Below are positions 3,247-61,824 of a stretch of DNA of 64,000 bases, in pieces; position 1 is the stretch's first letter; each line of letters starts with the position of its first letter. The stretch covers positions 124,001-188,000 of the IMG/VR virus record IMGVR_UViG_3300031963_000003, one strand, 5' to 3'. The DNA is from a virus. Under the pieces are notes generated by a model that had not been told where the DNA came from, did no database searches, and saw only the letters and a list, made by a program, of their open reading frames with translations. The translations under genes and the position numbers were made by a program.

Positions 3247-3258
3247 ACATTGAATTTA

Positions 3259-3265: not shown

Positions 3266-3271
3266 GAAATA

Positions 3272-3622: not shown

Positions 3623-3625
3623 TAA

Positions 3626-29061: not shown

Positions 29062-29072
29062 CCCCCTTTTTT
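29050..29072 (+). terminator. Terminator between convergent operons
   Basis: GGGGGT (29050-29055), loop CAATA, ACCCCC (29061-29066), then six T. With the A-rich sequence on the left it can also stop transcription arriving on the minus strand from the glycan operon. Confidence 0.8.
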
Positions 29073-30132: not shown

Positions 30133-30746
30133 TTTATTTTTTTAAAAAATCCCTCACCAAAATTATTACCCCACCAAAATTGTTCAACACAGGTAAACCC
30201 ATGATGTGTCATCCAATTGTTTATTTCATCAAAGTGTGGACAACCTTTATATAATTCGGCTCTGTTTATTTCTACAATAACGTAGTCAATGTTGATTAAT
30301 GTATTCACGGAACCTTTGAGAACCTCTAATTCAAAACCTTGAACATCGATATTCATCATGTTGTATTTTGAAAAATCGTAATTTAAATCATCCAATCTAT
30401 CCATTTCAACTTCTTCTACAGAATCAAAAACGATATGAGGAAATTGAACAGAATGTAATTTCGGTTCTAATATTGAGGATGACATACCTTTATTAAAGGA
30501 TTCTACAAACATAGAAACTTTTCTCTTTTCATTACCTAACGCCAGTTTAACTAAAATTGCGTCATCATCTATTTTTTCTTTTAAGGTCTCAAAATTAGAC
30601 GATAGAGGTTCAAAGTATATTCTGTTTGAAATACCCAATTCCTTATAAACTTCATCTTCTTGACCAAAATGTGCACCAACGTGAATCACACCATGGATAT
30701 TAACATTATGATTAATCATAAATGTCTTTAGCTCTATATTATTCAT
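30129..30746 (-). CDS. FkbM-family methyltransferase
   Basis: 205 residues. SAM-binding motif HVGAHFGQE (22-30), acidic YFEPL at the end of strand 2, and the FkbM C-terminal signature MNIDVQGFELEVLKG (132-146). FkbM enzymes O-methylate sugars or small molecules. It overlaps both neighbours by 4 bp (ATGA) and probably methylates a residue of the glycan. Confidence 0.8.
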   Translation of the reverse strand: MNNIELKTFMINHNVNIHGVIHVGAHFGQEDEVYKELGISNRIYFEPLSSNFETLKEKIDDDAILVKLALGNEKRKVSMFVESFNKGMSSSILEPKLHSVQFPHIVFDSVEEVEMDRLDDLNYDFSKYNMMNIDVQGFELEVLKGSVNTLINIDYVIVEINRAELYKGCPHFDEINNWMTHHGFTCVEQFWWGNNFGEGFFKKIK

Positions 30747-31510
30747 TCTCTATCCTCTTTATATTTGTCTTTATTATACAATAAATCCCTGTGTTTTTCA
30801 AGTATTTTTGCTGCGTTTACGTAAACTAAATTATTATGTAATGATTGATTTTTTTGTCTAGTGGTCCCCCATCCAGGTTCGGAAATATAATCTATCGTAT
30901 ATAAACCTGACACTTTTCCGAGTTCTTTGAATGCTCTCATGGACATATCCATATCATCATAATTTTGGGGTGAAAAATATTCGTCTAAAAAATTTAATTT
31001 GACCACGTCATTATAGTTGTACATTAGTGGACCTCTGTTACCATATTCTCTAGCATAAAAAATATCTCTTGATGAGTTATCTTTATGTGCAATATCGATG
31101 TAATTTATTTGTTTTGTTTGTTCATTATAGATGTTATTGTGAGCAACAAAAGATGTTACAGCGAACACATCACTATATTTTATGAACGGTTCCAACATCC
31201 TCTTATCAAAATCTTTTTCTGTGACAACCATATCATCTTGGATTAAGACCACATAATCATTTATAACAGACTTTAGACCAATATTATTTGCTTTGGTTTC
31301 AAAAACATTGTCGGCATACAGGTAATCAATTTTTTTATTACTAACTCTCTTTAAATTGTCACGAACAATACCTTCACTATTATCTGTACAACCATCAAAA
31401 ACTATTACAATCTGGTCATTCAGTTCTGATAAATTATTTACCAAGTTACTCACCACTTGGTTCATTAAGAATTCCTTGTTGTGAATTGTCAATACTACTG
31501 ATGTTTTCAT
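30743..31510 (-). CDS. GT2-type glycosyltransferase
   Basis: 255 residues from ATG 31510, whose ATGA overlaps the stop of the upstream gene; the ATG at 31540 is inside that gene. GT-A fold: SVVLTIHNKEF at the start, IVFDGCTDNSEG, and VLIQDDM as the DxD-like metal site. Sugar donor not predictable. Confidence 0.8.
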   Translation of the reverse strand: MKTSVVLTIHNKEFLMNQVVSNLVNNLSELNDQIVIVFDGCTDNSEGIVRDNLKRVSNKKIDYLYADNVFETKANNIGLKSVINDYVVLIQDDMVVTEKDFDKRMLEPFIKYSDVFAVTSFVAHNNIYNEQTKQINYIDIAHKDNSSRDIFYAREYGNRGPLMYNYNDVVKLNFLDEYFSPQNYDDMDMSMRAFKELGKVSGLYTIDYISEPGWGTTRQKNQSLHNNLVYVNAAKILEKHRDLLYNKDKYKEDRE

Positions 31511-32268
31511 TTTAAAAGATATTTTGATAATTCTATACAATCACCTTTTCTATCAAACAGGTGGTCAACATAATTATACGTTTCAATCACGTTATAATTT
31601 TCTTTGTGAAAAATCCAATTATTTGCCGTTTGCTCACAACAATGATAAATCTTCGAGTCTGTATCAGTCACATCTGAAATGTCTACCGATATCATATCTT
31701 CCATAATTTTTTTTGCTTGGTGAATATTGTAATCCGCGGGCAACCCAAAAATACCTAAATTATAAATTTTAAAATCTAAATCATTTGTAACCTGTTTACA
31801 TATTTTTATTTCACCCCATCTCGGGTCACCATTCCTAACGATTCTTTCATACTTCCAAACCATAATAGAATTATCATCAATTTGTGGTAATTCCGAATGA
31901 AAAAATAAATCATTATCGATTTTTACAGTGTACTCAGTTTCTGATTTTGCATAATTAATAAAATCATTTAAAACTGTAAAACTATAATTAAGACTTTCAT
32001 TGTATTTGGTAAGTTGTTCCGTGTAATCAATATAAATAATTCTGTCTTGGTCAATGTTATACTTGTTCATTTTTTCTTTCATACCCTCAACATCATCAGT
32101 ATAAAGATGTAAAATACTTTTTCTATTCTTATCAATAAATGAAGCATAAGATGCTGATGAATAATCAGATATAAACTCTTTATTTTTGTAGACATCAAAC
32201 GCCCATTTCCGACCGATTTGGGACATTTTATTTAAGTCATAATTATAATTTAATGCAATAAATTTCAT
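31507..32268 (-). CDS. Putative glycosyltransferase
   Basis: 253 residues. The segment VKIDNDLFF (about 122) is a DxD-like site after a beta strand, as in GT-A enzymes, and the operon context supports the call. The overall family is not recognised, so assignment is tentative. Confidence 0.5.
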   Translation of the reverse strand: MKFIALNYNYDLNKMSQIGRKWAFDVYKNKEFISDYSSASYASFIDKNRKSILHLYTDDVEGMKEKMNKYNIDQDRIIYIDYTEQLTKYNESLNYSFTVLNDFINYAKSETEYTVKIDNDLFFHSELPQIDDNSIMVWKYERIVRNGDPRWGEIKICKQVTNDLDFKIYNLGIFGLPADYNIHQAKKIMEDMISVDISDVTDTDSKIYHCCEQTANNWIFHKENYNVIETYNYVDHLFDRKGDCIELSKYLLK

Positions 32269-32939
32269 GGTATATATACGTTGTATTTTATTCTATAATC
32301 GAGACAATAATCAAATTTTAAATTATGTTTCACAACCAAGTTAGTTAATATACTTTGGTCATTTCTATGGAATTGCCAATTTGGAAAATTCTCACCAATT
32401 TGATTTGGTTCATTGTCAACTATCTGTTTAATACTACAATACTTAAAATAATCGTGAACAAATTCCATCATTTGTTTGGTTTTTTTAATGATGATAAATC
32501 CTGCTTCCATCTGTGGTGTTTCATGAAACTTTTCTTCATCACAATCCATCAAGATAAAACAGTCTCTTTTTGTACATATTTTTTGAGGCCAACGATTTCC
32601 ATTCCAATTTGTAAAATAATAATCATTATCTTTCAAATAATTTGCAATCGTATTATAATCAACATCAACTAAATCACCGGCATCGGTATAAATTAATGCA
32701 TCCCCATCTTCTAATTCATTCAAAATATCTAAAATAATTTTTGGTTTCCACAACCAAAATCCATCACCCGTTTCACAATCTAATATTTCTTTATGGTTTT
32801 CATAAAAAATACCTTTCTTAACATCTTCAGATTTAAATCCTCGGATATCATTGAAACCACGTGAATTATAATATCCGATTAATTTTTGAACGGTGTTACT
32901 AAATTTATTGTTGGTGTAAAAAGATAGAACAATTTTCAT
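32265..32939 (-). CDS. Capsular-type glycosyltransferase
   Basis: 224 residues. The core GFWLWKPKIIL followed by LIYTDAGD matches a family of polysaccharide glycosyltransferase-like proteins with a WLWKP motif and DxG metal site; NRWPQKICTKRD is the usual later motif. Overlaps the downstream gene by 4 bp. Confidence 0.65.
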   Translation of the reverse strand: MKIVLSFYTNNKFSNTVQKLIGYYNSRGFNDIRGFKSEDVKKGIFYENHKEILDCETGDGFWLWKPKIILDILNELEDGDALIYTDAGDLVDVDYNTIANYLKDNDYYFTNWNGNRWPQKICTKRDCFILMDCDEEKFHETPQMEAGFIIIKKTKQMMEFVHDYFKYCSIKQIVDNEPNQIGENFPNWQFHRNDQSILTNLVVKHNLKFDYCLDYRIKYNVYIP

Positions 32940-32941
32940 TA

Positions 32942-33643
32942 TTAATGTATCCCCCGAACATTTACGTTTATTTCATATTCATTTATTAATGGAGAGAGTT
33001 CATTAGGGTATTCAGATAAATTCCATTTACCTCTAACTAAAGCCGTTGCTATATATGGATAAACAGAACTATCAAAATGATTCAACCCCCTTTTGTTTTC
33101 ACCATCGTAATGATATAAACCTTTGATGTTGTTTTCTATCATAAAATTTCTATATGTTTCATTCTCTAACCACATATTATTTTTGGTACCTTTCATGATT
33201 TTAATGTAATCATCTTTTTTCCAAATAGTTGGTTGCATAGAAAATATATCTTTATTGTCGGATTCTATTTCATATAAGGTCTCATAAATTTTTTTATCTT
33301 TAACAGACCCCGATTTTAACAATCTAATGAACGAATATTCTTGGTTATCATGTAAAAAATCGAGGTAATTAAAAATTTTATCATGACTGACATTGTTATA
33401 AAGAATAAAGTCTTCTTGTAAGTATATAAAATAGTCATATGGTATTGAAGATAAACACTTTAACCATGATTCATAATAAGGTTCTTGATTTTCATATAAA
33501 AAACAAATTTGCTCGGGTATCATTACATCTGTAATAAAATACATCGGTAAGTTTGTGTACTTTTTTTGTTCTAACAAGAACATATCCAAAATATCTGAAC
33601 ATTTTGAATTTGTATAAGTAACGTAACAAATTTTATTATCCAT
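32942..33643 (-). CDS. Putative glycosyltransferase (GT-A)
   Basis: 233 residues with YFIYLQEDFIL (about 73-83) as a likely metal-binding acidic site and an SxQPTIWKKDD segment later, as in several uncharacterised sugar transferases. Overlaps the upstream FkbM gene by 8 bp. Confidence 0.55.
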   Translation of the reverse strand: MDNKICYVTYTNSKCSDILDMFLLEQKKYTNLPMYFITDVMIPEQICFLYENQEPYYESWLKCLSSIPYDYFIYLQEDFILYNNVSHDKIFNYLDFLHDNQEYSFIRLLKSGSVKDKKIYETLYEIESDNKDIFSMQPTIWKKDDYIKIMKGTKNNMWLENETYRNFMIENNIKGLYHYDGENKRGLNHFDSSVYPYIATALVRGKWNLSEYPNELSPLINEYEINVNVRGIH

Positions 33644-34370
33644 AAGGTGTTAAATTTTTGTTGATATAAACCACATCCATTTCTGTGTTTGAAGATTCTG
33701 GCGACTCGTCTATTGGTATAAACCTATTTAGTTTTTCATCTAGTTCAGATTTACTTGTAGAACCACGATATAATTCCTGTAACCCTACTTCGGTGGTTAT
33801 TATTTTTACATCATTTAAATATTCTTTTAGAGAGTCTAATACGATATTTTCTGCACCTTGAACATCCATCCAAATCAAATCAACACTTTTAATATCATTT
33901 TCTTTTAACCAATCACTAAGAACAATACAGTCAACCTCAGTTTCCTTTTGGGCCCACTGAGATGAACGCCAGTGGTTTGTTGTCTGTAATAAAGAACTGG
34001 CACCCACATTTCCATTATAAACTTCGTAAAATTTAGTTTTACCGTTGTAATTGTTTATTGCGTATTGGTAAACTTTTATGTTATTAATTTTCTCAACGTT
34101 CTTAACTGTAAATTCGTAGTTTTCTTTTACTGGTTCAAACGCATATATTTTAGCATGTGGAAACCATCTATTTAACTCTAAACTTTGGCAACCATCTCTT
34201 GACCCAATATCTAATATTGTGTTGACATCATTAAAGTCAATTTTATCTTTTATAACATTAATCATTTTTGTTGTCCATAATGGACATCTACCATTCAAAT
34301 CGGTAAAGGCACCCCTATTTAATTCATCTTGAGTAAATGCGTCGTCAATAAATTTTGAATTATCTATCAT
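33636..34370 (-). CDS. FkbM-family methyltransferase
   Basis: 244 residues. SAM motif ILDIGSRDGCQS, acidic YAFEPVKENY and WMDVQGAENIVL signature. Second FkbM enzyme of the operon; its sequence is clearly different from the one at 30129, so they probably methylate different positions. Confidence 0.8.
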   Translation of the reverse strand: MIDNSKFIDDAFTQDELNRGAFTDLNGRCPLWTTKMINVIKDKIDFNDVNTILDIGSRDGCQSLELNRWFPHAKIYAFEPVKENYEFTVKNVEKINNIKVYQYAINNYNGKTKFYEVYNGNVGASSLLQTTNHWRSSQWAQKETEVDCIVLSDWLKENDIKSVDLIWMDVQGAENIVLDSLKEYLNDVKIITTEVGLQELYRGSTSKSELDEKLNRFIPIDESPESSNTEMDVVYINKNLTPYG

Positions 34371-34381
34371 TTTTATAATTT

Positions 34382-34972
34382 TTAAATCACCACCATACTA
34401 TAACATGGTGCGTCTTTATATGTGGACAAATTAATATTTCGTTTTAACCAAAAAATTTCATTATCATTACTTAATTCGCCACCCATAAAGTTTATATTTT
34501 TATAGTTAAGTGATATTATATTTTCCGTGATTATTTTTTCCGAATACTCATCGTGTATGGTAGATACATTCCAAATATCAAACACCGTATCTATTTCACC
34601 CTCCACAAAATAATCAACAAAATATTTTCCTTCATTATGCCAAGTCAAAAAATTTACACACTCTTTTTTAAATGTGGAAACTAATCTATTTGCATTAGAT
34701 GGTAGTAAATCACTTCTCCATTTAAGGACTCTGTTGTAACCTATTTCTTTGGCTTTCATTATTCCATTCAAAGTTGATATTTTTTGTAGTGCTATATTTT
34801 GTACACCCCTATCGTGTGGAATACTGTTGAATAAGACAACATCATTAGTATCGTATTTTGATTCTTCACCTTGCCATGTTGACCAAATCAAATCATAACC
34901 AGTCCAAGCGTTTTTTAATTCTTTAACGTAGTCTGAAGGTCCTTGTACTATGACACAAAAATCATTATTCAT
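34382..34972 (-). CDS. WavE-like glycosyltransferase
   Basis: 196 residues. CVIVQGP at the N-terminus, IWSTWQGE, then the N-x(4)-Q-x(2)-S-x(2)-G region and LKWRSDL match the WavE family of lipopolysaccharide core synthesis proteins, here in a short form. Eleven bp separate it from the next gene. Confidence 0.6.
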   Translation of the reverse strand: MNNDFCVIVQGPSDYVKELKNAWTGYDLIWSTWQGEESKYDTNDVVLFNSIPHDRGVQNIALQKISTLNGIMKAKEIGYNRVLKWRSDLLPSNANRLVSTFKKECVNFLTWHNEGKYFVDYFVEGEIDTVFDIWNVSTIHDEYSEKIITENIISLNYKNINFMGGELSNDNEIFWLKRNINLSTYKDAPCYSMVVI

Positions 34973-34978
34973 ACTGAA

Positions 34979-35698
34979 TTAAAATTTTGATATGTGATTA
35001 TGATATTGTGACCCTTCATACATGTATGGTCTAGTTATTTTATTATGTATGAATACATCTAATGCGGAACCAAAATCAATATAAGTGTTATTACTATTAT
35101 TTGTAAACATATGTTTTATGATAACAGCAGATGTTGGTCCACAACATACGATAAATAAAGTATCTTTATATTTTGAAGAAACATTGTATATTTTTTCTAA
35201 AAACGAATCTCTATGTTCTTCCCAATAGTTTACACAATCATTAGGGAACGGTACAAATTCTGATACACTAAATGGTATGTTTTTTAAATCACAATTTTCA
35301 TTACAAATTAAAACAACATCTCGATTTATATTTCTTATTCTTGATATATTTTCTTTGTAATTTGCGTTAATCCATAGGTTAGCAAATGTAATGTTTGATT
35401 TATTTTGTATTCTATCATATAAAAAATTATAGTCTCTAATACTATCAGTTTTGGAGGATATTGCAAAATAAAAATTTGGGTCGTTCAACCCTATACATTC
35501 ATTTAAATCCACACCTAATTTGGTTTGTCCCCCACTCGAAAACCATTTATCGTTTTGATACGCTTGTGTATTCTTTTCTATCGGTGAATTATTCATTAAC
35601 ATCACTTCACCATCGGCATATCTAACAAAAGAAAAGTTAGTTCGACTATCTATCTTTTCCCAAAACGAATTAAAATCTTCAATATACTTTTCAATCAT
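34979..35698 (-). CDS. GT-D (DUF1792-like) glycosyltransferase
   Basis: 239 residues. SFVRYADGE (23-31) corresponds to the conserved R-x-G-D-G-E motif of GT-D enzymes (with Ala for Gly), and FIVCCGPTSAVI plus YIDFGSALD match the later nucleotide-binding motifs. GT-D enzymes add glucose to O-linked glycans of bacterial serine-rich adhesins, which is suggestive given the Thr-rich fibres here. Confidence 0.6.
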   Translation of the reverse strand: MIEKYIEDFNSFWEKIDSRTNFSFVRYADGEVMLMNNSPIEKNTQAYQNDKWFSSGGQTKLGVDLNECIGLNDPNFYFAISSKTDSIRDYNFLYDRIQNKSNITFANLWINANYKENISRIRNINRDVVLICNENCDLKNIPFSVSEFVPFPNDCVNYWEEHRDSFLEKIYNVSSKYKDTLFIVCCGPTSAVIIKHMFTNNSNNTYIDFGSALDVFIHNKITRPYMYEGSQYHNHISKF

Positions 35699-36419
35699 TT
35701 AATATTGTCTTAAATCCTTTATTTACATACCCACGGTAAACTTCACCCATTAAATTCATATTTGAATGATTTACGGAAATTGCGTTGGAATCAGTTCCAT
35801 GTTCCCATGCATATTCTGGTATACTACCCCACATTTCTCTATTTTCTTTAGGATGGGGAGGAACGTAAGTTCCGATATTTGCGTATTTCTGTAATGTATA
35901 TGAAAAGTGCATATCCTCACCAACTAATTTACTCTGATTGATTTCAGGTAATTCTCTCCAAAATATCGATAACCATTCTCTTTTAAAGAACCACGAGTGA
36001 CCAACAATGTCGACCTTTTCAATTTCTTCGTTAGGTTGGTCCCAACCGACTCTTGTTGCTGGCCAATAAGAGTTTTTTGTGTGAAATTTTACACCGATAG
36101 TTCCTAATAAACCTTCTTGAATTTTCATGGTGTTTAGACAGTTTTCTAACCATAGTTTACCCGGTATTGTGTCATCATCAAAAACACAAATATATTCTGT
36201 GTTGGCATTTAAAGCAAATGCAAATCTTGCCCACACACCTAAATTACTATTACAAGATGCGTGAATTAAATCTTTGGTTAGTCCCTCATCAAATTGAGAA
36301 CCAGAATTTTGCCAAAATAAAATTGATTCGGGTTGGACACTTTGATTTCTAATTGATTCCAATTGTTTTTGGAGAACATGTGGTCTTTTATACCCATTTA
36401 ATATTACCGTTATACTCAT
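35691..36419 (-). CDS. GT2 glycosyltransferase
   Basis: 242 residues. TVILNGYKRP, QLESIRNQS and YICVFDDDTIPG (DDD metal site, about 75-78) are classic GT-A family 2 motifs. ATGA overlap with the downstream epimerase-side gene. Confidence 0.8.
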   Translation of the reverse strand: MSITVILNGYKRPHVLQKQLESIRNQSVQPESILFWQNSGSQFDEGLTKDLIHASCNSNLGVWARFAFALNANTEYICVFDDDTIPGKLWLENCLNTMKIQEGLLGTIGVKFHTKNSYWPATRVGWDQPNEEIEKVDIVGHSWFFKREWLSIFWRELPEINQSKLVGEDMHFSYTLQKYANIGTYVPPHPKENREMWGSIPEYAWEHGTDSNAISVNHSNMNLMGEVYRGYVNKGFKTILND

Positions 36420-37408
36420 ACAATTTTTCTAAATATTTCAATGATTCTTTCACAAGAATTACCATCACCAAAAGGACAATCATATTCTGTTTGGAAATCG
36501 TTAATAATATCGTAAAAAATACCTTCTAAGTCAATGGGTTTTTTACATATAAAAGACGTTTTACCCAAGGACTCAGGTCTCTCAGTTTTTTCTCTACATA
36601 CAATAACTTTCTTATTTAGGAACGACGCCTCTTCTTGAACACCCCCACTATCTGAAATTAGTAATTTACAGGATTTGAATTCCTCAATAAATTTATCATG
36701 GGTTAATGGTTCAATAACATCAACATGTGTCAATATATGTTTGTGTTTTATGACGTTTGGGTTTGGGTGTATTGGAAGAATGAATTTTAATTCAGGATTA
36801 TTCTTTGCTAATCGATTGATAACATCAAACCACTCCGACATCATCTCATGATTCTCTCTTCTATGTAAAGTGATTAAGACTTTATTTTCGTATGTAATAT
36901 TTTCTTTATTAAGATTATCTAATACGGTATTGCCAACTACAAAATTTTTACCCTGAACTTTTTCATTTTCTAAGTTCATCTTGTTACTTTCTGTTGGGCA
37001 AAGATTATAGTTTGAAATTCTACTAATTAACTGCCGATACATTTCTTCGGGGTAAGGGTGATTGTAGTCATATGTCCGTAATCCCGCTTCTAAATGAATC
37101 ACTTCTTTTTTATGGTGTAATCCTATTAGGGATAATGAAAGAGCGGTTGCGGTGTCCCCTTGGATAAGTATATGTGTAACCCCTTCCAAAAATTCTTTTT
37201 TAAAATTTAAAAATACGGATGACATAATACTATCCAATCTATTTTCACACGTATCATCAATGGATAATTTATAATCAAAATCACCCAATACAATATCTTT
37301 GTGTTGGGTAACATATAAAATTTTATGGGGAATACTTTCCCCACACATTTCTATTAATTTTTTTATTTTAATATACTCAGGTCTTGTGCCGTAACAAAAT
37401 AATATCAT
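36416..37408 (-). CDS. wecB: UDP-GlcNAc 2-epimerase, non-hydrolysing
   Basis: 330 residues, slightly shorter than typical WecB/MnaA. GTRPEYIK (7-14), ILIQGDTATALS, HLEAGLRTYD with HPYPEEMYRQLISRIS, TLHRREN and ISDSGGVQEEA followed by TERPE are all present. It interconverts UDP-GlcNAc and UDP-ManNAc, supplying ManNAc or its uronic acid for a surface-type glycan. Confidence 0.9.
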   Translation of the reverse strand: MILFCYGTRPEYIKIKKLIEMCGESIPHKILYVTQHKDIVLGDFDYKLSIDDTCENRLDSIMSSVFLNFKKEFLEGVTHILIQGDTATALSLSLIGLHHKKEVIHLEAGLRTYDYNHPYPEEMYRQLISRISNYNLCPTESNKMNLENEKVQGKNFVVGNTVLDNLNKENITYENKVLITLHRRENHEMMSEWFDVINRLAKNNPELKFILPIHPNPNVIKHKHILTHVDVIEPLTHDKFIEEFKSCKLLISDSGGVQEEASFLNKKVIVCREKTERPESLGKTSFICKKPIDLEGIFYDIINDFQTEYDCPFGDGNSCERIIEIFRKIV

Positions 37409-38226
37409 ATATAAGTTGAAATGATTTCTAAATTTTTTAAAGTGTTAGTTTCTAAGAAATCAATTAATTCATCACCTGATAACCTATTAAACCATTCTTC
37501 TAAACTTGCACCATAATTTTGTGTCGTTATTACTTCCAAACCTAAACATTTTGCCTCAACAACCAGTCTACAAAAAGTTTCTCTTGCTATCGGGAAAAAC
37601 ACAATACCTTTACATTTGGCCATATTACTTAAAAATTCAACTCTGTCTTTAGATTCTTTAAGAATATGGACCGGTAATTTATTTTCAGAACAATACTTCA
37701 GACTACCTTGGGTGTTCTTTATCCAATTATTTGTATAGTAAACAGAATATTTGTCGTTTTTAACATTGTTGGATTTATTTAAATTCCTCAATAATTCTAA
37801 GTCCTCATTTGACCATATCGAACTATTCAGATTTATAAAATTAGCAACAACATCGTTTTTAAGATAAACGTTCATGTGGTCGGTTGTTTGAACAAATACC
37901 GCTTTTGCATTCCGGTAAAGAGAATAGTTGGTTCTTTCCTCAATCGGAATTATGTTGTCGGTATATCTCCATGGGTGTCTACTTGCACATATTTTATAAT
38001 CGTTTTCAATAATGACGTAGTTCAAATTTTGTATTTGATTAACCAAGTTTGGGTTCATCAAAGAAATATTTGATATAATATACAGGGCGTTGTAATCAAA
38101 TGACTTGACTTGGTTTGAATATTCAAACTCAAGATTAAATCTATCAATTAAAACTTGATTCACCCATTCAGAACCACCGTGAGGTACTTCTTTAATGGTA
38201 AAATCCGATATAAGTATTTTCCTCAT
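37405..38226 (-). CDS. Putative GT-B glycosyltransferase
   Basis: 273 residues. HGGSEWVNQ near the N-terminus and RETFCRLVVEAKCLGLEVIT in the C-terminal half match the acceptor-loop and the E-x7-E nucleotide-sugar motif of GT4-like enzymes; the N-terminal domain is short. Confidence 0.65.
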   Translation of the reverse strand: MRKILISDFTIKEVPHGGSEWVNQVLIDRFNLEFEYSNQVKSFDYNALYIISNISLMNPNLVNQIQNLNYVIIENDYKICASRHPWRYTDNIIPIEERTNYSLYRNAKAVFVQTTDHMNVYLKNDVVANFINLNSSIWSNEDLELLRNLNKSNNVKNDKYSVYYTNNWIKNTQGSLKYCSENKLPVHILKESKDRVEFLSNMAKCKGIVFFPIARETFCRLVVEAKCLGLEVITTQNYGASLEEWFNRLSGDELIDFLETNTLKNLEIISTYI

Positions 38227-38945
38227 ATAACTTGATAATTTTCTTTTAACATGCTGTCCATGTAATTGAATGGTAAATTAAAATAATGTTCACCGAATTT
38301 ATGTTGTTTATTGAACGATGACAATCTCTTTGCTCTTGAAATGTAAATGTTCTTCACGTAGTCTTTACCCAAGAATTTATAGTGAAGAAGTTTTATTTCC
38401 CGCTCATCCGAAAATTTACCATCAACAGAATTAAAACTGTGACCACCAATGCCGTATTTTATATCTAAATCAGGATGAAAAATTATATTTTTACACATTG
38501 GTTCATACGTTTGTGAACCTGTTTTAATTTTTGTTGTAATGAATTCACCGTCGTATATTGGAAATTCAGTACTAACCATGTCGTGACCGTCTATTCTTGG
38601 GACGGTTATACCCATTTCTTTGTACTCTTGAAGTTTATCCATAAGATTTTCATGGTATATAAACTCATCACAGTCACAAACTATAACCCAATCAACACCC
38701 TGACCTCTACTTCTTTTTTTATACTCTTCGGATTTAATGTTTACGTAATTAATTTCATTTATTTCATTACCACTATCCCATTTAATAACCTCAACTTTTG
38801 GGTACCTCTTATAAATCTCATCAGAGGAGTCCGTTGACATATTATCGTATATGAATATTTTTTCACAGATTGTACTATAGTAATCCAATGTGAATGGTAA
38901 TATTTTTTCTTCATTCCATGACAGTATATGTGCGTGTATCTTCAT
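38223..38945 (-). CDS. GT2/GT92-like glycosyltransferase
   Basis: 240 residues. AHILSWNEEKILP, IYDNMSTDSS and VIVCDCDEFIY (DxDE metal site) are motifs of the glyco_tranf_2_4 type group; a conserved GIGGHSF-like loop and LLHYKFLG follow. Clear glycosyltransferase, donor unknown. Confidence 0.75.
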   Translation of the reverse strand: MKIHAHILSWNEEKILPFTLDYYSTICEKIFIYDNMSTDSSDEIYKRYPKVEVIKWDSGNEINEINYVNIKSEEYKKRSRGQGVDWVIVCDCDEFIYHENLMDKLQEYKEMGITVPRIDGHDMVSTEFPIYDGEFITTKIKTGSQTYEPMCKNIIFHPDLDIKYGIGGHSFNSVDGKFSDEREIKLLHYKFLGKDYVKNIYISRAKRLSSFNKQHKFGEHYFNLPFNYMDSMLKENYQVI

Positions 38946-38946
38946 T

Positions 38947-39726
38947 TTAAAATATGTTTTTCCAAAGTGTTAATATCTCTTCGTTACTTAATTTAGAAAC
39001 TTCATTCATAGTCTCTTCATTACCATAAAACTCTGTACCGGTTAAATAACATTCATCTTTAACCAAACAAGCAACCTCACCCTTTGATGAGTGATATACC
39101 TTACCAATCATATCGTACATTTCTTGTTTATTGGTGGTGTGACCGTAATGAATTACTCTTGGATTCATTAAAGGTTTTACCAATTTGTCAAAATAGTTTT
39201 GGTCACCGATGTGACCGAACAAATAGATTTTTTCACACCTGTCTTTTAATGCTCTTTGTATTGACACATGGGTCTGTTTTCTGTCTTCAATTGTACCAAT
39301 AATTCCTGCAATATTTCTTACCAGCTCTTTATTTGAAATAATTAAATTTTCTTTGATGTTTGGTATTATTACATAATCACCCCTGTAATCCGAGTGATAT
39401 TTTCGATGCTCTTCATGTAAAAACACGCACAGGTCCCAATACTGTTTAATTTTACCAACAGGGAACCACCATTTTTCATGACAAGACAAAATAACTTTTT
39501 TAACAGGTGGTCTTTCCTGTAGTTGTAAAAAATGGGTAATTACAATATCATCAGATTCATACTTTAAATCTTTTTCAATGTTCCCTGATTTACATTTGTC
39601 TAAATGGTAATTCTGATTACCGTAAAATGTGCAATCAATACCATTTTCATTTAAGAAATTTGTTAAGTTTATAAAAAAAGTGGTAGAACCACCTTTTTCT
39701 GTAAATCCCGATACAATTTTTATCAT
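38947..39726 (-). CDS. GT-B glycosyltransferase
   Basis: 259 residues. EKGGSTTFFINL at the start, a middle GTIEDRKQTH segment and a late EVACLVKDECYLTGTEFYG segment with EFYG near the nucleotide-sugar site fit a small GT4-like enzyme. ATGA overlap with the preceding 485-residue gene. Confidence 0.6.
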   Translation of the reverse strand: MIKIVSGFTEKGGSTTFFINLTNFLNENGIDCTFYGNQNYHLDKCKSGNIEKDLKYESDDIVITHFLQLQERPPVKKVILSCHEKWWFPVGKIKQYWDLCVFLHEEHRKYHSDYRGDYVIIPNIKENLIISNKELVRNIAGIIGTIEDRKQTHVSIQRALKDRCEKIYLFGHIGDQNYFDKLVKPLMNPRVIHYGHTTNKQEMYDMIGKVYHSSKGEVACLVKDECYLTGTEFYGNEETMNEVSKLSNEEILTLWKNIF

Positions 39727-41180
39727 CTTAATTGTTTGATATTTTTTCTAATTTCAGGTGAGTTTATGTACTGACCTAAGACTTGTTTTAATTCAACATC
39801 AACCTTTTCAAATTTTGATGCCATATCAATCATTACCACACTGTTTGTGTCAATGAATGTTTTACGTTTTTTAAGTAAAGTTTTCAACGCAAAATCTAAG
39901 TTATAAATTGATGTTTCTAAATTAATATCAAACCAATCAATCATTTTTAAATTTGTAGATGTAGTGGCAAAAAAGTCACTAATACTACCAAAATTGTTTG
40001 GAAAGTGTCCGTGTAAAATATTGAAAAAAGATGATTTGTTTTTAAAAATTAAATTGAACTGTTCGTTGTTTTGAACTATATCCAATCCATTTGAAAAAAT
40101 TGTTCGGTCGTTTTCTAATACTGTAGGAAAGACGCACCCAAAAGTATTTTTTTCACTCTTAAATATTGAATACATACTTGAGAAAACGTCGTTCAATACG
40201 GTAACAGTATCATTACTGAAAAATAACAAATCTGTTTTTGATTCCATAAACGATTCATCCCATTTCAGTACTGATAAGTTTTTATTTAATGTATCAAAAA
40301 AACCCTCGTAAATTTTAATATTTTCAGATTCAAATTCTCTAATATTGTCTATATTGGTATCCGTCGAGATGAGTGAAATCTGTAAACTATCAAACACTGG
40401 TAATTTTTTTATGTTTTCAAAAAACTGAATTAAATTTTCATTATCGTTTGATGTTTGAACTATTAAATTAAATTTATCTTTAAACTGTTTTGGTTTGGTT
40501 ATGTCATAATCAATTTTTGGTGTTATATTAATTGGTAGGTTCTCTTTAAATTTTTCAATGTAAAATTCCCTATTCTTTTCCCAAGAATCATTGGTCATTC
40601 CGATTGATTTGTGAGTGATTCTTATGTTGTATATAACACCGATGTTTACCTCACTTAAGTGATTGCTAGTACAGAATACCATATCATAAAAATGAAAACC
40701 CGGTACTGACTCATCAAAAGTGTGTTTTATTCTGTTTTTGTGGATTCCAATGAATAAACCATCCACTAAACAAACTTCGTGAATTGAATTTGGGATTCCA
40801 TTTGCATATCTCGATTCCCATTTTTTACCCTCATTTTCATGATTAACAATACCAACCATTTTGGTATTATCTGTCCACCACCTACCACTCTCATGAATAT
40901 TGGTTGTACCGGCAACACCGAGAATCCCGTAGTCAGATTCTTCAAAATGTTTGACTAATTTTCTACCCCACGAAGTCGTATTAAAGTAAATGTCATCATG
41001 ACAAAGTACGACAATATCATGAATCGACTCTTGAATAATTTCATTGTAAGTTTGTGAAAGACTTTTTTCACCATTGTTTACTTTTTCAATAACTTGAACT
41101 TTGGGGTGTCCACAAGTTTTTTTTAAATATTCTTGAAATTTTGGGTTGGACTCTCTTGTACTGTAACCTATTGTAATCAT
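39723..41180 (-). CDS. Large glycosyltransferase, StrF-like N-terminus
   Basis: 485 residues and first gene of the operon. The N-terminal 230 residues resemble the glyco_tranf_2_5/StrF domain: LSQTYNEII, IVVLCHDDIYF (DD metal site), LGVAGT and VDGLFIGI. The C-terminal 250 residues have a second alpha/beta unit (FNLIVQTSNDNEN, LLFFSNDTVTV) that could be a second transferase domain. Bifunctional enzymes of this sort often build chains. No promoter could be assigned with confidence in the 50-bp leader. Confidence 0.65.
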   Translation of the reverse strand: MITIGYSTRESNPKFQEYLKKTCGHPKVQVIEKVNNGEKSLSQTYNEIIQESIHDIVVLCHDDIYFNTTSWGRKLVKHFEESDYGILGVAGTTNIHESGRWWTDNTKMVGIVNHENEGKKWESRYANGIPNSIHEVCLVDGLFIGIHKNRIKHTFDESVPGFHFYDMVFCTSNHLSEVNIGVIYNIRITHKSIGMTNDSWEKNREFYIEKFKENLPINITPKIDYDITKPKQFKDKFNLIVQTSNDNENLIQFFENIKKLPVFDSLQISLISTDTNIDNIREFESENIKIYEGFFDTLNKNLSVLKWDESFMESKTDLLFFSNDTVTVLNDVFSSMYSIFKSEKNTFGCVFPTVLENDRTIFSNGLDIVQNNEQFNLIFKNKSSFFNILHGHFPNNFGSISDFFATTSTNLKMIDWFDINLETSIYNLDFALKTLLKKRKTFIDTNSVVMIDMASKFEKVDVELKQVLGQYINSPEIRKNIKQLR

Positions 41181-43417: not shown

Positions 43418-43616
43418 AGAAAAGAAATACATCACGGATTTTTTTGTAATAAGAAAGAAATACCATTGGTTTCTTTTACCAACTCCCATATTTTACTACC
43501 GTAAAGACACGTTTTTTGAAACCGGTGCAACCTCACCAAGCTGGGGTTTGGCTTTGAGATTCTTAATTTTTATGGTCGGTATTCAGATACAGAAAAACAT
43601 ATATTATAAAAAATGA
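43407..43616 (+). CDS. Small hypothetical protein, 69 residues
   Basis: Basic, aromatic-rich protein with one possible membrane segment near the C-terminus (LALRFLIFMVGIQI). Overlaps the upstream gene by 11 bp and the glutamine synthetase by 4 bp. Confidence 0.5.
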   Translation: MSNKEKKYITDFFVIRKKYHWFLLPTPIFYYRKDTFFETGATSPSWGLALRFLIFMVGIQIQKNIYYKK

Positions 43617-44737
43617 AAACAAAAGTAGAATACGTATGGCTTGATGGGTATTCCCCTGAGCCAAATCTCAGAAGTAAAATAAAAATTGTGGACCTACCGG
43701 CACCATTTGAATTGAAACACATCCCCAATTGGGGGTTTGACGGAAGCTCAACTAAACAAGCGGAAGGTAACTTTTCAGATTGTTATCTTAAGCCAGTAAA
43801 ATTATATCATACAAATAGTTCACTTGATACAGTATATGTATTATGTGAGGTTTTAGATGGTAATAATGAAATTCATCCATCAAATCATAGAGCAAAAGTA
43901 GGTGAGGAAGATGTAAATTTTTGGGTTGGATTTGAACAGGAATATTTTATTCGTTCTTCACATAATAATCCAATTCTTGGATTTGAAAGAAATGGTATCA
44001 TTGACGGTCAAGGAATTTATTATTGTGGTGTAGGTGGACATATTGTTGGTCGAAATATTTCTGATGAACATTTGAACATGTGTTTAAAATATGACATCAA
44101 TGTGGAGGGAACCAATTCAGAGGTTGCATTAGGTCAATGGGAATACCAAATTTTTGCAACAGGTAAAATTGCCGCTTCTGATGATTTATGGATGAGTAGA
44201 TATTTTTTACATAAAATTGCTGAGAAATATGGTCGTTCTATTGAGTTACATCCCAAACCGATGACCCACGGAGAATGGAACGGTTCAGGTTTACATACAA
44301 ATTTCTCAAATCAAAAAATGAGAGAAGAGGGTGGTGAACAATACTTCAATGCAATTTTTAGGTCTTTTGAATCAAGAACACAAGAACATATTGACTCTTA
44401 TGGTTCTGATAACCATTTGAGATTAACAGGTCATTTTGAGACACAATCTATTGATAAATTTAGTTGGGGTGTCTCAGACAGAGGTGCATCTATCCGTGTA
44501 CCAAAATCCGTTGGTGAGACATGGAAGGGTTATCTTGAAGACAGGAGACCAGCATCACACGCGGACCCATATAAAATCGTTAAAGTGATTAGTGATAGTT
44601 TATCATTAGCCGAAGAATTAAATAATGTTCATCACATGATGAATGTTGAAATAGACACCGAAAAAATTGTAAATAAATACGGTACACTTTCAGGGGAGGA
44701 ACTCTTGGAAAGTTATCGAAAAGATGAAGAAGAATAA
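43613..44737 (+). CDS. Glutamine synthetase, type II (eukaryote-like)
   Basis: 374 residues, full length for GSII. Beta-grasp start YVWLDGY with LRSKIKI, WGFDGSS, SDCYLKPV; catalytic FEQEYF, NVEGTNSEVALGQWEYQ, HPKPMTHGEWNGSG with LHTNFS, and LTGHFETQ with SWGVSDRGASIR and LEDRRPASHADPY all remain, so it should be active. It makes glutamine from glutamate, ammonia and ATP, supporting purine/pyrimidine synthesis during infection. Type II enzymes occur in Bacteroidota as well as eukaryotes; capture from the host is the simplest source. Confidence 0.9.
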   Translation: MKTKVEYVWLDGYSPEPNLRSKIKIVDLPAPFELKHIPNWGFDGSSTKQAEGNFSDCYLKPVKLYHTNSSLDTVYVLCEVLDGNNEIHPSNHRAKVGEEDVNFWVGFEQEYFIRSSHNNPILGFERNGIIDGQGIYYCGVGGHIVGRNISDEHLNMCLKYDINVEGTNSEVALGQWEYQIFATGKIAASDDLWMSRYFLHKIAEKYGRSIELHPKPMTHGEWNGSGLHTNFSNQKMREEGGEQYFNAIFRSFESRTQEHIDSYGSDNHLRLTGHFETQSIDKFSWGVSDRGASIRVPKSVGETWKGYLEDRRPASHADPYKIVKVISDSLSLAEELNNVHHMMNVEIDTEKIVNKYGTLSGEELLESYRKDEEE

Positions 44738-48425: not shown

Positions 48426-49802
48426 ATGAAAATTACAAAAACACTATTATTAATTTTAGGATTGTTTACAATCGTATACTCATGTTCTGACACGAGTAAA
48501 ACAATTAAACCACAAGAGTTCCCAACGGACTTAGGTATTTCGGGATTCAATTTTCCTGAAGACTCTACGAAAATTTACGGATGGTTAGAGAATCAAGATA
48601 CAACCAGTATTGTAAATCACGCGTGGGGTATTTGGGCTGGACTTACTCAACCAACAAAACAAAAATACAATGGTCAAACATTGTTGGTTTTTGAAACTTG
48701 GATGGGTGTTCAAGAACTATCTGCAATGTCTGCACAGGGTCAAGTTTCAAGTTCAATGGAAAAATCAAACAGAACTGAACTTAACATCCCGAAACAATTT
48801 GTACATGGTAAACTTTTCGCGGGACAAAAGATTGACACAAACTTCACTGTGTTGGAAACAGTTTCTTATGACCCATCTGCGGCACATTTTGCAACATCAA
48901 ACAAATTATTTAATCAATCGTCATTGAACAAATATTTGGTAAAAGATGGAATTGGTGCGGTACCTGAATTTCCTAATACTTCAATCACCACCAAACCAAC
49001 ATATTATGCTGGTGTACCAAGTAAAAACGGTTTGATTAGAGTACCTGTTTGGGTATCACCAAATCCGGCCAAAGCGTATAGATATAATGAATGGCAACAA
49101 TGGGTTTACGCCGATGTTAATAATAAACAGGAACCGAATAAAAAGTTAGTACCTGTAACAACATCAAATCCCACAGAGGAACAAATTAAAGATGCGACCT
49201 GTAACGTAAATGATTTTATTAATTATAAAATTGATAGAGTAGGTGCGGACTATCTCAATAGTCACCAAGACGTTGGAACTACACCAAGTAGACAATTTAT
49301 CGAAGGTGACTATGTGTTGTTGGTAGCCATGCACGTAACAACAAAAGAATTTAAAAATTGGACATGGCAAACTTATTTTTGGTGCCCTGACCCGTCTAAC
49401 CCTCCTTCACCAAGTTCTAAATTTGAAGCAGGTCTTAGACCTAAAGAACTTAAAGGCGCCGCTTCACACTACGCAGTTAGTACAGCATACGCAATGGTTT
49501 GGCCGAATCAACCTGTGAGTGGCGGTTCTGACAACAACGCTAGACCGATACTTGCTTTCAATCCTTATTTAGAGGGTGGATTTGGTCCAAAAGTTTTCAG
49601 TTTACAAAACAAATTCAGACCTGATTTTGTGTATGGAATGCAAACAAACTGTATGTCATGTCACGCATTGTCGACTATGACGGGTAAGAATGGATACACC
49701 ACAAATCAATACATTGATATGATGGACACATCGTTATTTAAGAATGATGTTAAATTAGATTTCACATGGTCAATTCAAGGTAACTTGAATTCTGATAAGT
49801 AA
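48426..49802 (+). CDS. Exported lipoprotein with a c-type heme motif
   Basis: 458 residues. The N-terminal signal sequence (hydrophobic 6-18) ends in VYSC, a usable lipobox with acylated C20. Near the C-terminus a single CMSCH (409-413) is a CXXCH heme-attachment motif; an AAHFA and several HAW/SHY histidines could give the distal ligand. The rest is a large soluble domain of no recognised family. It is metabolic-type cargo unlike any common phage protein, most likely captured from a host and placed in the outer membrane or periplasm. Confidence 0.65.
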   Translation: MKITKTLLLILGLFTIVYSCSDTSKTIKPQEFPTDLGISGFNFPEDSTKIYGWLENQDTTSIVNHAWGIWAGLTQPTKQKYNGQTLLVFETWMGVQELSAMSAQGQVSSSMEKSNRTELNIPKQFVHGKLFAGQKIDTNFTVLETVSYDPSAAHFATSNKLFNQSSLNKYLVKDGIGAVPEFPNTSITTKPTYYAGVPSKNGLIRVPVWVSPNPAKAYRYNEWQQWVYADVNNKQEPNKKLVPVTTSNPTEEQIKDATCNVNDFINYKIDRVGADYLNSHQDVGTTPSRQFIEGDYVLLVAMHVTTKEFKNWTWQTYFWCPDPSNPPSPSSKFEAGLRPKELKGAASHYAVSTAYAMVWPNQPVSGGSDNNARPILAFNPYLEGGFGPKVFSLQNKFRPDFVYGMQTNCMSCHALSTMTGKNGYTTNQYIDMMDTSLFKNDVKLDFTWSIQGNLNSDK

Positions 49803-50351: not shown

Positions 50352-52187
50352 ATGCAACTCATCAAACAAAGATTTTCTTATTTCAGAATAGATTTAGTTA
50401 GGGATAATTGTATGTTGTCTGAAGATAGACCAATACCAATTGTTGTATCTGATGGTAAAGAACTGGATGATGATTTTTTATTTACTGAACAGGTTAAGAC
50501 ACTTGAGCCCGTTGTAAATAGGGATACCAAATTTGAAACCATAAAATTGGAACCAAGACCATCAAAGGGTGCGAGGACAAAATATTTTTATGGTGAAAAA
50601 GAAAAAGAATACGTTTCTTTCATAAAATTGACAAAAGAACCTTGTTACACAACAAGTGAAAAACATTTAAAAAGACATTATGGGAATCCTTTCTCATCAA
50701 TACAAATTGTAACATTTGAAAGAACAATAGAACTTAGAGAAGGTAAACTTTACATAAGGTGTTACAAGAATACCAGATATCGTGATTTTAATTGGAAATA
50801 TTTCCGTAAATCTTCCAAGGTAATGACGTTAACAATTGATTTACAGAAGGGAGATTTTACGATTGGGGATATGAATTTTGGAAAGATAAAATCCAAAAGA
50901 TTTAGAAAAAATTCATTTACTACGTTAGAAATCTTGTTGGGTTCAAACAGTCTTTTCAATTTAAAAAAAGAGTTTAGTAACAATCTTAAAATCGCTAAGG
51001 AATTTGATGACACATTTAATGAACACGAATTTGTAAATGTTATTAAAAATCACATTCCAAACTTACCTACTAACGTTGGAAACTTATTTGATAAACATTT
51101 TTTTATAACTAGTTTTATTGAATTCTTTGCGGAAAAGAAAAAAATAAAAACACCAAACGACTTTGTACCACTTATTAAAATACATTACCCAACTGAAAAA
51201 TACCTTAAAAAGAATCAGAGAAAATTAATGCAATCTATTTTGGATAGTTACGGAATAAATTCAAAATTTACCTTGAAACTTTTCCATGAAAATCCAAAAT
51301 TAAATTTACAAGAGTTTTCATGTATGTGTGATTTACTTGGAAAGGATTATCCAAAATACCTCGGTTCTTTGAAAAGTGAATGTTTTAATCTTTTTATGGT
51401 AGATAATGGTAATGCACATTCTATGGTACCGCTTGAATTGAGAGGTGCTAAAAATCACCACCGACACCTGTTTATTGATAATGTTGATAGGGAAAATATC
51501 ATTAAAATTTTAAATTCCCTGATTCCCAAACCGGCAGGAGACCATTCAGTATCGTCGGTTACTCGAGGTATATACACTTTGATAAAAGACCACTTCGATA
51601 TGATTGAAAAGATTCGTGAATTTGACCCTAACATAAAAATGAGGGCAACAAATTACACGGACTTTCATACAGAGCACATTGAACTATCCAAGACATGTTC
51701 ATTAATCAAAAAGGGTTGGTCAATCGAATATCAATATGACAACAGAATGGTGAGATTAGTGGAGGAACAAATAAAGACTCGATTTGAGAACGACAATCAT
51801 ATTTTTTCTCCTGTGATATTAAAGAGAGAAGAAGAATATTCGGAAGAGGGTACATTTATGCACCACTGTGTTGCCAGTTACGCAAACAAAGAATCATCAA
51901 TGATAATTTCATTGAGGACCAACGGTGGTTCAGATAGAGTAACATGTGAGTTTAACAAAAAAACAGGTGACTGTATTCAGGAGAGACATTTTTGTAATAA
52001 GTTACCACCTGAGTATTTTGGTGAATCATTAGAAATATTAAAACAAAGAGTTAGAAAATTTGCGTCACAAAGATTATTGAACCACATTGATATTAAAAAG
52101 GTGAAAGTTAAAATAAATGGGAAGGAAGTCAACCAAAGAGAACCTGATTTATTTGAACAACTGATGAATGGTGACATAGAGTTTTAA
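50352..52187 (+). CDS. PcfJ-like protein, 611 residues
   Basis: The C-terminal part carries the PcfJ core: REEEYSEEGTFMHHCVASYA (about 495-514) with an SLRTN strand and a QERHFCN loop. The N-terminal 350 residues are Lys/Phe-rich with no known domain. PcfJ proteins are common in mobile elements and phages, with no settled biochemical role. The plus-strand TATATTTG box at 50329-50336 is its likely promoter, with a weak -33 element. Confidence 0.65.
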   Translation: MQLIKQRFSYFRIDLVRDNCMLSEDRPIPIVVSDGKELDDDFLFTEQVKTLEPVVNRDTKFETIKLEPRPSKGARTKYFYGEKEKEYVSFIKLTKEPCYTTSEKHLKRHYGNPFSSIQIVTFERTIELREGKLYIRCYKNTRYRDFNWKYFRKSSKVMTLTIDLQKGDFTIGDMNFGKIKSKRFRKNSFTTLEILLGSNSLFNLKKEFSNNLKIAKEFDDTFNEHEFVNVIKNHIPNLPTNVGNLFDKHFFITSFIEFFAEKKKIKTPNDFVPLIKIHYPTEKYLKKNQRKLMQSILDSYGINSKFTLKLFHENPKLNLQEFSCMCDLLGKDYPKYLGSLKSECFNLFMVDNGNAHSMVPLELRGAKNHHRHLFIDNVDRENIIKILNSLIPKPAGDHSVSSVTRGIYTLIKDHFDMIEKIREFDPNIKMRATNYTDFHTEHIELSKTCSLIKKGWSIEYQYDNRMVRLVEEQIKTRFENDNHIFSPVILKREEEYSEEGTFMHHCVASYANKESSMIISLRTNGGSDRVTCEFNKKTGDCIQERHFCNKLPPEYFGESLEILKQRVRKFASQRLLNHIDIKKVKVKINGKEVNQREPDLFEQLMNGDIEF

Positions 52188-52207: not shown

Positions 52208-52230
52208 TCCATGTATATTTTATACATGGA
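52208..52230 (+). promoter_or_regulatory. Palindrome around the start of the second PcfJ-like gene
   Basis: TCCATGTATA-TTT-TATACATGGA: perfect 10-bp arms and a 3-nt TTT loop. It contains both candidate start codons (52211 and 52226) and a TATATTTTATA promoter-like core. Same layout as the palindrome at 8758-8778. Confidence 0.5.
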
Positions 52231-53614
52231 TTTGTTACTTAGACATTATCAAAACAAAAAATCCAAAACGAACAATTCGGTTTCGATTTGTGAATTACAG
52301 TTGTATCAATATGATAGTTTGATACACTATATCGCGGATTTTTCTTTCGATTATTTACGATACGGAATAAAAAACATCCTTACCATCCATCACGGGTTCA
52401 CGGTTAATTTAAAAAACGGGGACATAAATACTTACTACCAATTATCAAACTATTCAGTGAGTGAAGGTGATAAAGGTAGAAGTAAAAATAATAGAAAGAA
52501 GAATAATTTTGATTCAATACTTGCACTAATAGAAAACGGCATGTACAAGGGTGAAAAGAGAAAAGATTATTGGGGTAAAAGGTATAATAAATCAATTCAG
52601 GACATTATTAATATTTTAATATCCAAAATACAATCTGAGTCAAATTTTAATATTGAAAAGAATTATCAAGAGAAATGCTATATTAATCCACTATATGATT
52701 TGTTAGTTGATTTTCATTTATCAAAGAAAAATATAAAATACCATGATACTGTTTACACCACAATTCAACAAGAGTATCCACAGAAAAAATGGTTAAAATT
52801 AAATGATAATAAATTTTTACCTTCTATTTTAGATTCGTATGGAATTAAATCAAAGTACTTGATTGCTGAATTAAATAAACCACAAAACTTTGATGTGAAT
52901 ATTAAAAGTCTAAGCTTTCTATGTAAACTTTTTGGTGATGGTTACGTTGATTATTTAAGACAAACTAAGTGGCACGACATTGTAAAACGTAATTCTAATT
53001 TCAGAAAATTCCACACTTTGAAAAATGATAAAGAAAAATCCATGATGGTCAAGGTTATTAATGATTGGGAAACCACAAACCTATATAAAGATAATTTTGT
53101 TGAGTTGGTGAACAAATTAATGAATCTTCGAGAATTCATAGAATCCAAAAATATCCCCTGTAAATTTAATGCGAGCGATTCCGACTCTGTAGAATTACTT
53201 TTAAATAAATTTGAAAACATAAAAAATCATTTTAAAAGGGGTTACAAAACAAGATATTCATTTAATGAGGAGTTCATAAATGAAATAGAATCTGACATTA
53301 TAATTGACAATAAAGTTTTTCAAACCAAAATACTCAAAACCGAAGAGGATTTTTTCACTGAAGGATTTATGATGAAAAATTGTATGTCTAAACAATTCAG
53401 CAAAGGTGTGGTCTATATCTATCTTTCCATGAAATGTAATCGAACAAAGATTAATTTAGAATATAAAAAAGGTAGTTTGATAATGTCTTTTGGTAAGGCC
53501 AATAGTCCTGTTGAGTCTTATTTCAATCCCGCAATAAATGAAATATCAAAAAAAATGATGAAATATTCCAATATGACATGGACTAAAGAAAAATATGAAT
53601 ATATTTCAAAATAA
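52226..53614 (+). CDS. PcfJ-like protein, paralogue of the previous gene
   Basis: 462 residues from ATG 52226 (an ATG at 52211 is in frame but inside the left palindrome arm). It shares with its neighbour the segment LPSILDSYGIKSK (compare MQSILDSYGINSK), FLCKLFGDGYVDYL (compare CMCDLLGKDYPKYL) and the PcfJ core EEDFFTEGFMMKNCMS with KINLEYKKG. It is shorter at the N-terminus. A tandem duplication followed by divergence is the likely origin. Confidence 0.65.
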   Translation: MDLLLRHYQNKKSKTNNSVSICELQLYQYDSLIHYIADFSFDYLRYGIKNILTIHHGFTVNLKNGDINTYYQLSNYSVSEGDKGRSKNNRKKNNFDSILALIENGMYKGEKRKDYWGKRYNKSIQDIINILISKIQSESNFNIEKNYQEKCYINPLYDLLVDFHLSKKNIKYHDTVYTTIQQEYPQKKWLKLNDNKFLPSILDSYGIKSKYLIAELNKPQNFDVNIKSLSFLCKLFGDGYVDYLRQTKWHDIVKRNSNFRKFHTLKNDKEKSMMVKVINDWETTNLYKDNFVELVNKLMNLREFIESKNIPCKFNASDSDSVELLLNKFENIKNHFKRGYKTRYSFNEEFINEIESDIIIDNKVFQTKILKTEEDFFTEGFMMKNCMSKQFSKGVVYIYLSMKCNRTKINLEYKKGSLIMSFGKANSPVESYFNPAINEISKKMMKYSNMTWTKEKYEYISK

Positions 53615-60972: not shown

Positions 60973-61824
60973 ATGGAACCATTTTTGAAACGATTAATTT
61001 TCGGAATTTTAGGATTCATTATCCTAACCTTATTGTTTTTCTCTTGTGAGAGAATTGACGCCGGTCACGTCGGTGTAAAAGTAAATCTATATGGTGATGG
61101 AAAGGGTGTTGATGATGTCACCGAATGTACAGGTATGGTATTCTACAACCCCTTCACAACAAAGATTTATGAATTCCCAACCTATATTCAACACAAAGAG
61201 TATAAGAAAACTGAGGAATCTGATAATTCATTTGTTGTAAACTCAAAAGACGGTTCTGAGTTTCAAGTATCCCCAATTATGAACTATTCGGTTCAAAGAG
61301 AAAAAGTACCCACAATATTTTCAAAGTATCGTAGGTCATTACCTGAAATTGAGGAGGGATTTTTAAAGACCGCAGTATATGACGCGTTTCGTTTAGCAAC
61401 AAATAAGTACACTGCTGATGAACTAATCTCGAATAGGGCGGTGTTTGAAGTTGAGGTTCGTAAACTATTGGAAAGTCAACTTTTAAAAGAAGGGTTTGTG
61501 ATAAACCAATTCACCTCAAATTTGATTTACCCTGAGACATTTAAGAAGTCCATTGAAGCCAAGAACAATGCGGTCCAAGCAGCGTTAAGGGCGGAAAATG
61601 AGGTAAAAACTGCGGAAGCTCAAGCCAAGATTAAAATTGCAACCGCCAATGGTAATGCTCAAGCAATGTTGACCGCGGCTAAAGCGGAATCCGAAGCCAA
61701 TCGGATGAAACAACAAACAATTACACCTTTACTCCTACAACTTGAATGGATTAATAAATGGAATGGGAAGTTACCCGAAACCATGTTAGGTGACAAAAAT
61801 AATACGATGATAGGTATTAAATAA
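60973..61824 (+). CDS. SPFH/prohibitin-family protein
   Basis: 283 residues: an N-terminal membrane helix (about 8-25), then the SPFH domain starting ERIDAGHVGVKVN, an Ala/Glu-rich coiled coil (about 190-240, AENEVKTAEAQAKIKIATAN) and a short tail. SPFH proteins form large membrane rings that restrain proteases such as FtsH. A phage copy could protect phage membrane proteins or interfere with host lysis decisions (inference). Confidence 0.8.
   Translation: MEPFLKRLIFGILGFIILTLLFFSCERIDAGHVGVKVNLYGDGKGVDDVTECTGMVFYNPFTTKIYEFPTYIQHKEYKKTEESDNSFVVNSKDGSEFQVSPIMNYSVQREKVPTIFSKYRRSLPEIEEGFLKTAVYDAFRLATNKYTADELISNRAVFEVEVRKLLESQLLKEGFVINQFTSNLIYPETFKKSIEAKNNAVQAALRAENEVKTAEAQAKIKIATANGNAQAMLTAAKAESEANRMKQQTITPLLLQLEWINKWNGKLPETMLGDKNNTMIGIK

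Follow-up and report, generated by a model that had tools for sequence, protein, structure and literature searches.

A phage-encoded predicted mono-haem c-type-cytochrome-like lipoprotein with distant resemblance to cytochrome P460/c'-beta

The small haem protein cytochrome P460 deals with nitric oxide and hydroxylamine, and the P460/c'-beta superfamily, whose members bind or oxidise small ligands, is known from proteobacteria and Thermus. Its fold, a five-stranded antiparallel beta-sheet that surrounds the haem, has been reviewed as unique to two small protein families. Its members (PF16694; McP460 in 6HIU and 9HRK, NeP460 in 2JE3, NsP460 in 6AMG) are exported proteins of ca 140 residues with one CXXCH motif near the C-terminus. 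In McP460, Lys78 is the residue cross-linked to the haem (PMC11928373, PMC12352625), while the non-oxidising NsP460 and the c'-beta proteins have alanine or glycine at the position of the distal carboxylate (PMC11928373).

Phage genomes have been described that carry soxD genes bearing c-type cytochrome motifs (PMC8190135). These soxD genes share with the gene described here the character of a phage auxiliary gene carrying such motifs, but they encode a known respiratory enzyme subunit, belong to an unrelated sequence family, and have lost the motifs in some viral copies. Since this precedent exists, a phage cytochrome gene, called very unusual in the initial annotation, is indeed rare but not unprecedented. 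A literature search found no phrase such as 'phage-encoded cytochrome', and no direct precedent for a phage cytochrome, a Bacteroidota P460 or tail-collar operons.

The gene lies in the window, that is, the whole stretch of 64,000 bases analysed here, which is part of a viral record of 233,563 bases. It is a complete ORF (ATG start, TAA stop) that encodes 458 aa (Table 1). The N-terminus carries the signal peptide MKITKTLLLILGLFTIVYS with the lipobox VYSC, as in a bacterial lipoprotein, and the lipobox cysteine is aligned in 41 of the 54 sequences of the family alignment discussed below. The N-termini are lipobox-like in the viral copies and in many bacterial homologues, and are ordinary signal peptides in the proteobacterial ones. 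The protein also has the mark of a c-type cytochrome, namely a CXXCH within an exported protein, for which the chance expectation from the protein's own composition is 0.0008. No other ORF of 60 aa or more in the whole record contains a CXXCH, and the bare DNA pattern is found elsewhere in the contig at chance level (12 matches vs 15 in the control). The lipobox and the C-terminal CMSCH that the initial annotation had seen in a 458-residue exported protein are thus borne out by the ORF reading, and the prediction of a c-type-cytochrome-like lipoprotein is supported.

Table 1. Coordinates of the features in the window and, where a locus is named, in related phage loci.
Feature	Position	Strand	Remark
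Exported lipoprotein ORF with one haem c attachment motif	48426..49802	+	distant P460/c'-beta-like family
Signal peptide and lipobox VYS-C (Cys20), residues 1-20	48426..48485	+	sequence
Residues 181-194, FPxxAITxKPxY, with invariant Lys190; tentative counterpart of the P460 FPDGTILVK strand	48966..49007	+	hhalign scan
Residues 287-317, LVAMHVTTKE..NWTWQTF; counterpart of P460 VQFMVKDSKKY..GGWGFARF	49284..49376	+	hhalign, 0/100 shuffles
CMSCH haem c attachment motif, residues 409-413	49650..49664	+	C, C, H invariant in 54/54
Residues 445-449, DFTWS (family DFxWS), resembling the P460 DxVFT tail	49758..49772	+	by eye; not significant alone
Tail-collar-domain genes	L034:9353-10752, L037:9353-9610		directly downstream of the viral cytochrome-like gene

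The source contig is a large T4-like phage of freshwater Bacteroidota. Profiles of the phage hallmarks portal, major head protein, tail sheath, baseplate wedge and DNA polymerase are matched in the record, as are those of ribonucleotide reductase and RNA ligase, and the matches within the window include an SbcC-like nuclease, a sigma factor, thymidylate synthase and an endolysin. A 100% identical protein is encoded in 12 other IMG/VR contigs, which rules out an assembly artefact or chimera, and more distant copies with 66–91% identity are present in 7 further ones. The cytochrome-like gene is therefore a stable part of this phage group. It adjoins thyA in the window phage and lies near thyA in L030 (on one contig with L013), L031 (with L014) and L032 (with L015), whereas in L038 (with L018), L034 and L037 it is found away from thyA. 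From these differing positions it follows that the gene has also moved within the phage genomes.

Some further features of the window can be mentioned here. Two adjacent large ORFs of similar layout, at 50352-52187 and 52211-53614, are conserved beside the cytochrome-like gene in the L030 phage. By sequence reading, the ORF at 43613-44737 (+) is glutamine-synthetase-like, and it is conserved with 72–89% identity in L030, L031 and L032. About a dozen genes at 29071-41180 (−) resemble, by the same kind of reading, glycosyltransferases, FkbM-type methyltransferases and nucleotide-sugar enzymes, a sugar cluster that is unusually large for a phage. Three adjoining ORFs at 421-6547 (+) contain long Pro-Thr repeats (TPTPTPT...) and probably encode proteins of the virion surface or of fibres. 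The ORF at 60973-61824 (+), which resembles SPFH/prohibitin proteins, would be a second one with a lipoprotein-like or membrane-anchored product.

With the single protein as query, neither Pfam nor NCBIfam nor the PDB sequences gave a useful match. The matches to NCBIfam rmlC (E 0.007) and, among PDB sequences, to glycoside hydrolase 20 and a suppression of copper sensitivity protein (E 0.2–0.6) were below significance and were dropped. The protein is matched by the uncharacterised PHROG 19967 with an E-value of 6e-27. When GTDB genomes were scanned using a small alignment, 49 loci were obtained, which are found in Flavobacterium (identity up to 62%), Chitinophagaceae, Reichenbachiella, Mucilaginibacter, Saprospiraceae, Tenacibaculum and one Ignavibacteriota MAG, with more distant ones in Bradyrhizobium, Roseobacteraceae, Sinorhizobium, Massilia and Verrucomicrobiales. 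The full-length homology search that the initial annotation had proposed thus returned an exported family of Bacteroidota and Proteobacteria that no Pfam model matches. In a sample of 297 genomes of the phylum to which Flavobacterium suaedae belongs, 6 have the family (the F. suaedae genome itself counted), corresponding to ca 2% of the sampled Bacteroidota, and it also occurs in some Proteobacteria.

Every complete homologue examined has exactly one C[MI][STAN]CH near the C-terminus. The alignment of 54 sequences has 27 invariant columns: the three haem-motif residues C409, C412 and H413, and 24 others, namely P44, H65, W67, T91, W92, K190, W209, F264, M302, H303, E308, W312, W314, W319, Y349, N379, P380, L382, E383, G404, N408, D445, F446 and W448. 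The initial annotation had made its haem reading depend on conservation of the CXXCH in homologues, and this conservation is complete. The family extends to PHROG 19967 and to Sinorhizobium plasmid proteins, where the uncharacterised QND34500.1 is a full-length homologue (tblastn, 25% identity over 93%) with a single haem motif, there CMTCH. It differs from the phage protein in its length of 409 aa, in having no lipobox, and in its position far outside the clade of Bacteroidota and phages.

For the comparison with cytochrome P460, an alignment was made of 18 P460 proteins taken from a genome sample of the phylum that includes Massilia, and 45-column windows of the family were scanned against this alignment using hhalign. 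The best blocks, namely the CXXCH (score 23), residues 181-194 (16.7) and residues 287-317 (13.9), are collinear and in register. The scores were matched by 0 of 100 shuffles for the haem block, 3 of 100 for the Lys190 block and 0 of 100 for the tryptophan block. Four blocks joined together give a probability of 91% and a score of 42 vs a shuffle maximum of 20, with an E-value of 1.2e-6 that is optimistic, as are the other P460 E-values, because the blocks were chosen post hoc, after P460 had been seen. In a block scan with hmmsearch, the tryptophan block (288-324) is uniquely placed, with a peak at 288-294 of 14.6 bits vs a background of ca 7 bits. Upstream of the CXXCH there is thus a block of the P460 type M.....GGW.Y..F, here a strand pair of the form M...(G/N)W.(Y/W)..F, with W312 present in 54/54 sequences and the P460 tryptophan in 18/18. 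After the haem motif, both families have D-x-x-[FW]-[ST], in which D445, F446 and W448 are invariant here and the P460 tail has D in 17/18, F in 15/18 and T in 15/18 sequences.

When the insertions are removed, PF16694 (Cytochrome_P460) becomes the most frequent Pfam match, found for 20 of 21 members with a best, again optimistic, E-value of 1.9e-6. The carved window protein scores 18.1 bits against this model, below the gathering score of 27. The top two of 177,635 PDB sequences are then cytochromes P460 (E 0.097 and 0.13, to be read with the same caution), and only 1 of 400 random block choices that keep the haem and tail blocks scored as well. At full length, Pfam gives no match and the hhalign probability for P460 is 6.9%. 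It is important to note that the family is about three times longer than P460 (ca 458 vs ca 140 aa), its core blocks being separated by large insertions, and that it is a family of lipoproteins found mainly in Bacteroidota.

The structural model was also considered. With 53 diverse rows, a plasmid-record sequence being left out, AlphaFold gives a confident model (pLDDT 90.8, pTM 0.90), whereas six near-identical rows resulted in a pLDDT of 29. In a Foldseek search with the model, neither PDB nor viral structures reached E ≤ 0.001, and the search of the BFVD viral structures returned nothing. The P460 structure 9hrk_A matches the full model weakly (E 3.8, TM-score 0.23), with a probability of 0.04 that is the highest among the weak PDB matches listed by Foldseek.

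Two residues bear on what kind of chemistry could take place at the haem. K190 aligns by hhalign with Lys78 of McP460, as located on chain 6hiu, while in hmmsearch two other placements, with starts at 34 and 73, reach an equal score. The assignment of Lys190 as the counterpart of the P460 cross-link lysine (Lys78 in McP460, Lys70 in NeP460), and with it of the FP....K strand that the two families probably share, is tentative and ambiguous. Because of these tied placements, the P460-like core rests mainly on the tryptophan block and the haem motif. The second residue is V300, at position −2 from the aligned methionine (V in 48, I in 4 and M in 2 of the 54 sequences), to which Asp102 of McP460 maps. 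The distal carboxylate of the hydroxylamine oxidases (Asp102/Glu96) thus has valine, isoleucine or methionine in its place, and this makes oxidation of hydroxylamine less likely than binding of NO or another redox reaction.

On the basis of these comparisons, we propose, with a probability of roughly 0.6, that the product is a periplasmic or outer-membrane mono-haem c lipoprotein, an enlarged relative of P460/c'-beta that would have a P460-like core with insertions and would bind or convert a small ligand at the haem. In such a scenario, the Sec, lipoprotein and cytochrome c maturation machinery of the host would process the phage protein. His413 would be the proximal haem ligand, leaving the distal site open for a small ligand such as NO, hydroxylamine-like N-oxides or peroxide. 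The phage could then benefit from detoxifying or sensing this ligand at the cell envelope during infection. The neighbouring genes of the window phage give no indication of nitrogen-oxide chemistry.

We now consider the gene neighbourhoods. A tail-collar gene (PF07484) is located directly downstream of the cytochrome-like gene in 5 bacterial loci and one gene further in 3 more, often in tandem copies. The same arrangement is seen in L034 and L037, two of the most divergent viral copies, with a distance of ca 20 bases, and the common neighbour in these phages and in Flavobacterium suggests transfer as a cassette. The window phage has no tail-collar gene. Together with the amine-oxidase neighbours discussed below, the tail-collar genes give a hint of a joint envelope function. 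One can speculate further that Lys190 does form the cross-link, which would make this the first virus-encoded P460-type catalytic haem, and that a large unrecognised Bacteroidota family acts with tail-collar proteins at the envelope and was captured by phages as a cassette of cytochrome and tail-collar genes. We regard this extended proposal as possible but doubtful.

The same neighbours would fit a different kind of protein, namely a surface or periplasmic enzyme, similar in type to an oxidase, peroxidase or peroxygenase, that would modify polymers of glycan or protein with tail-collar partners, and through which the phage would change the surface of its host, e.g. to keep other phages out. 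Some homologues have lectin-like additions (Jacalin, 6e-4 and 4e-3; CVNH, 0.026), and a 2OG-Fe(II) oxygenase is encoded nearby. However, the lectin matches are weak and the tail-collar partner is missing from the window phage, and we judge this possibility to be rather unlikely.

Another option is that the protein is a mono-haem electron-transfer cytochrome with a fold unrelated to P460, passing electrons to or from an oxidoreductase of the host envelope. This would agree with the CXXCH and the lipobox, and PF13442 (cbb3-type cytochrome) weakly matches 9 of the 21 carved members, but P460 is matched more strongly and by more of the members (20 of 21), and this match includes a block outside the CXXCH. 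Also in favour of the electron-transfer option, three Flavobacterium genomes have open frames of ca 1256 codons (L049:3553-7323, L051:3544-7314 and L060:3544-7317) that contain a flavin amine oxidase (PF01593), a jacalin-like stretch, a mid-frame lipoprotein-like signal and the cytochrome domain. Since an internal start is possible in L049, the apparent fusion may consist of adjoining in-frame genes instead of one protein. The amine-oxidase link is also limited to these three closely related loci, and nothing similar to the amine oxidase was found in the phage stretches searched. The initial annotation had gone further in this direction and suggested an effect on electron transport at the cell surface, for which we find no specific support: there is one haem motif, without a multihaem or porin partner, no respiratory gene was recognised among the flanking genes examined, and the closest superfamily binds or oxidises small ligands. 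Overall, an electron-transfer function appears improbable.

Finally, the viral copies can be compared with each other. In a maximum-likelihood tree, the 7 different viral sequences fall into a single clade (SH-aLRT 100), nested within a Flavobacterium clade (SH-aLRT 99). Pairwise dN/dS values among the viral copies are 0.04–0.14, which indicates strong purifying selection; in most pairs the synonymous sites are saturated or nearly so. Every invariant column, including C, C and H, is retained in all of them. Receptor-blocking phage lipoproteins are known, but this conservation makes it very hard to believe that the haem function has been lost in the phages and that the lipoprotein is only an envelope blocker. 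Given the single viral clade inside Flavobacterium and the low dN/dS, the most plausible history of the gene is a single ancient capture from a host resembling Flavobacterium, after which the function would have been retained.

If the proposed relationship to P460/c'-beta is correct, the superfamily would be extended to a large, unannotated Bacteroidota branch of enlarged proteins, and a phage lineage would be keeping a haem c enzyme over long evolutionary times. This would raise the question of which envelope or nitrogen-oxide chemistry aids a T4-like phage during infection.
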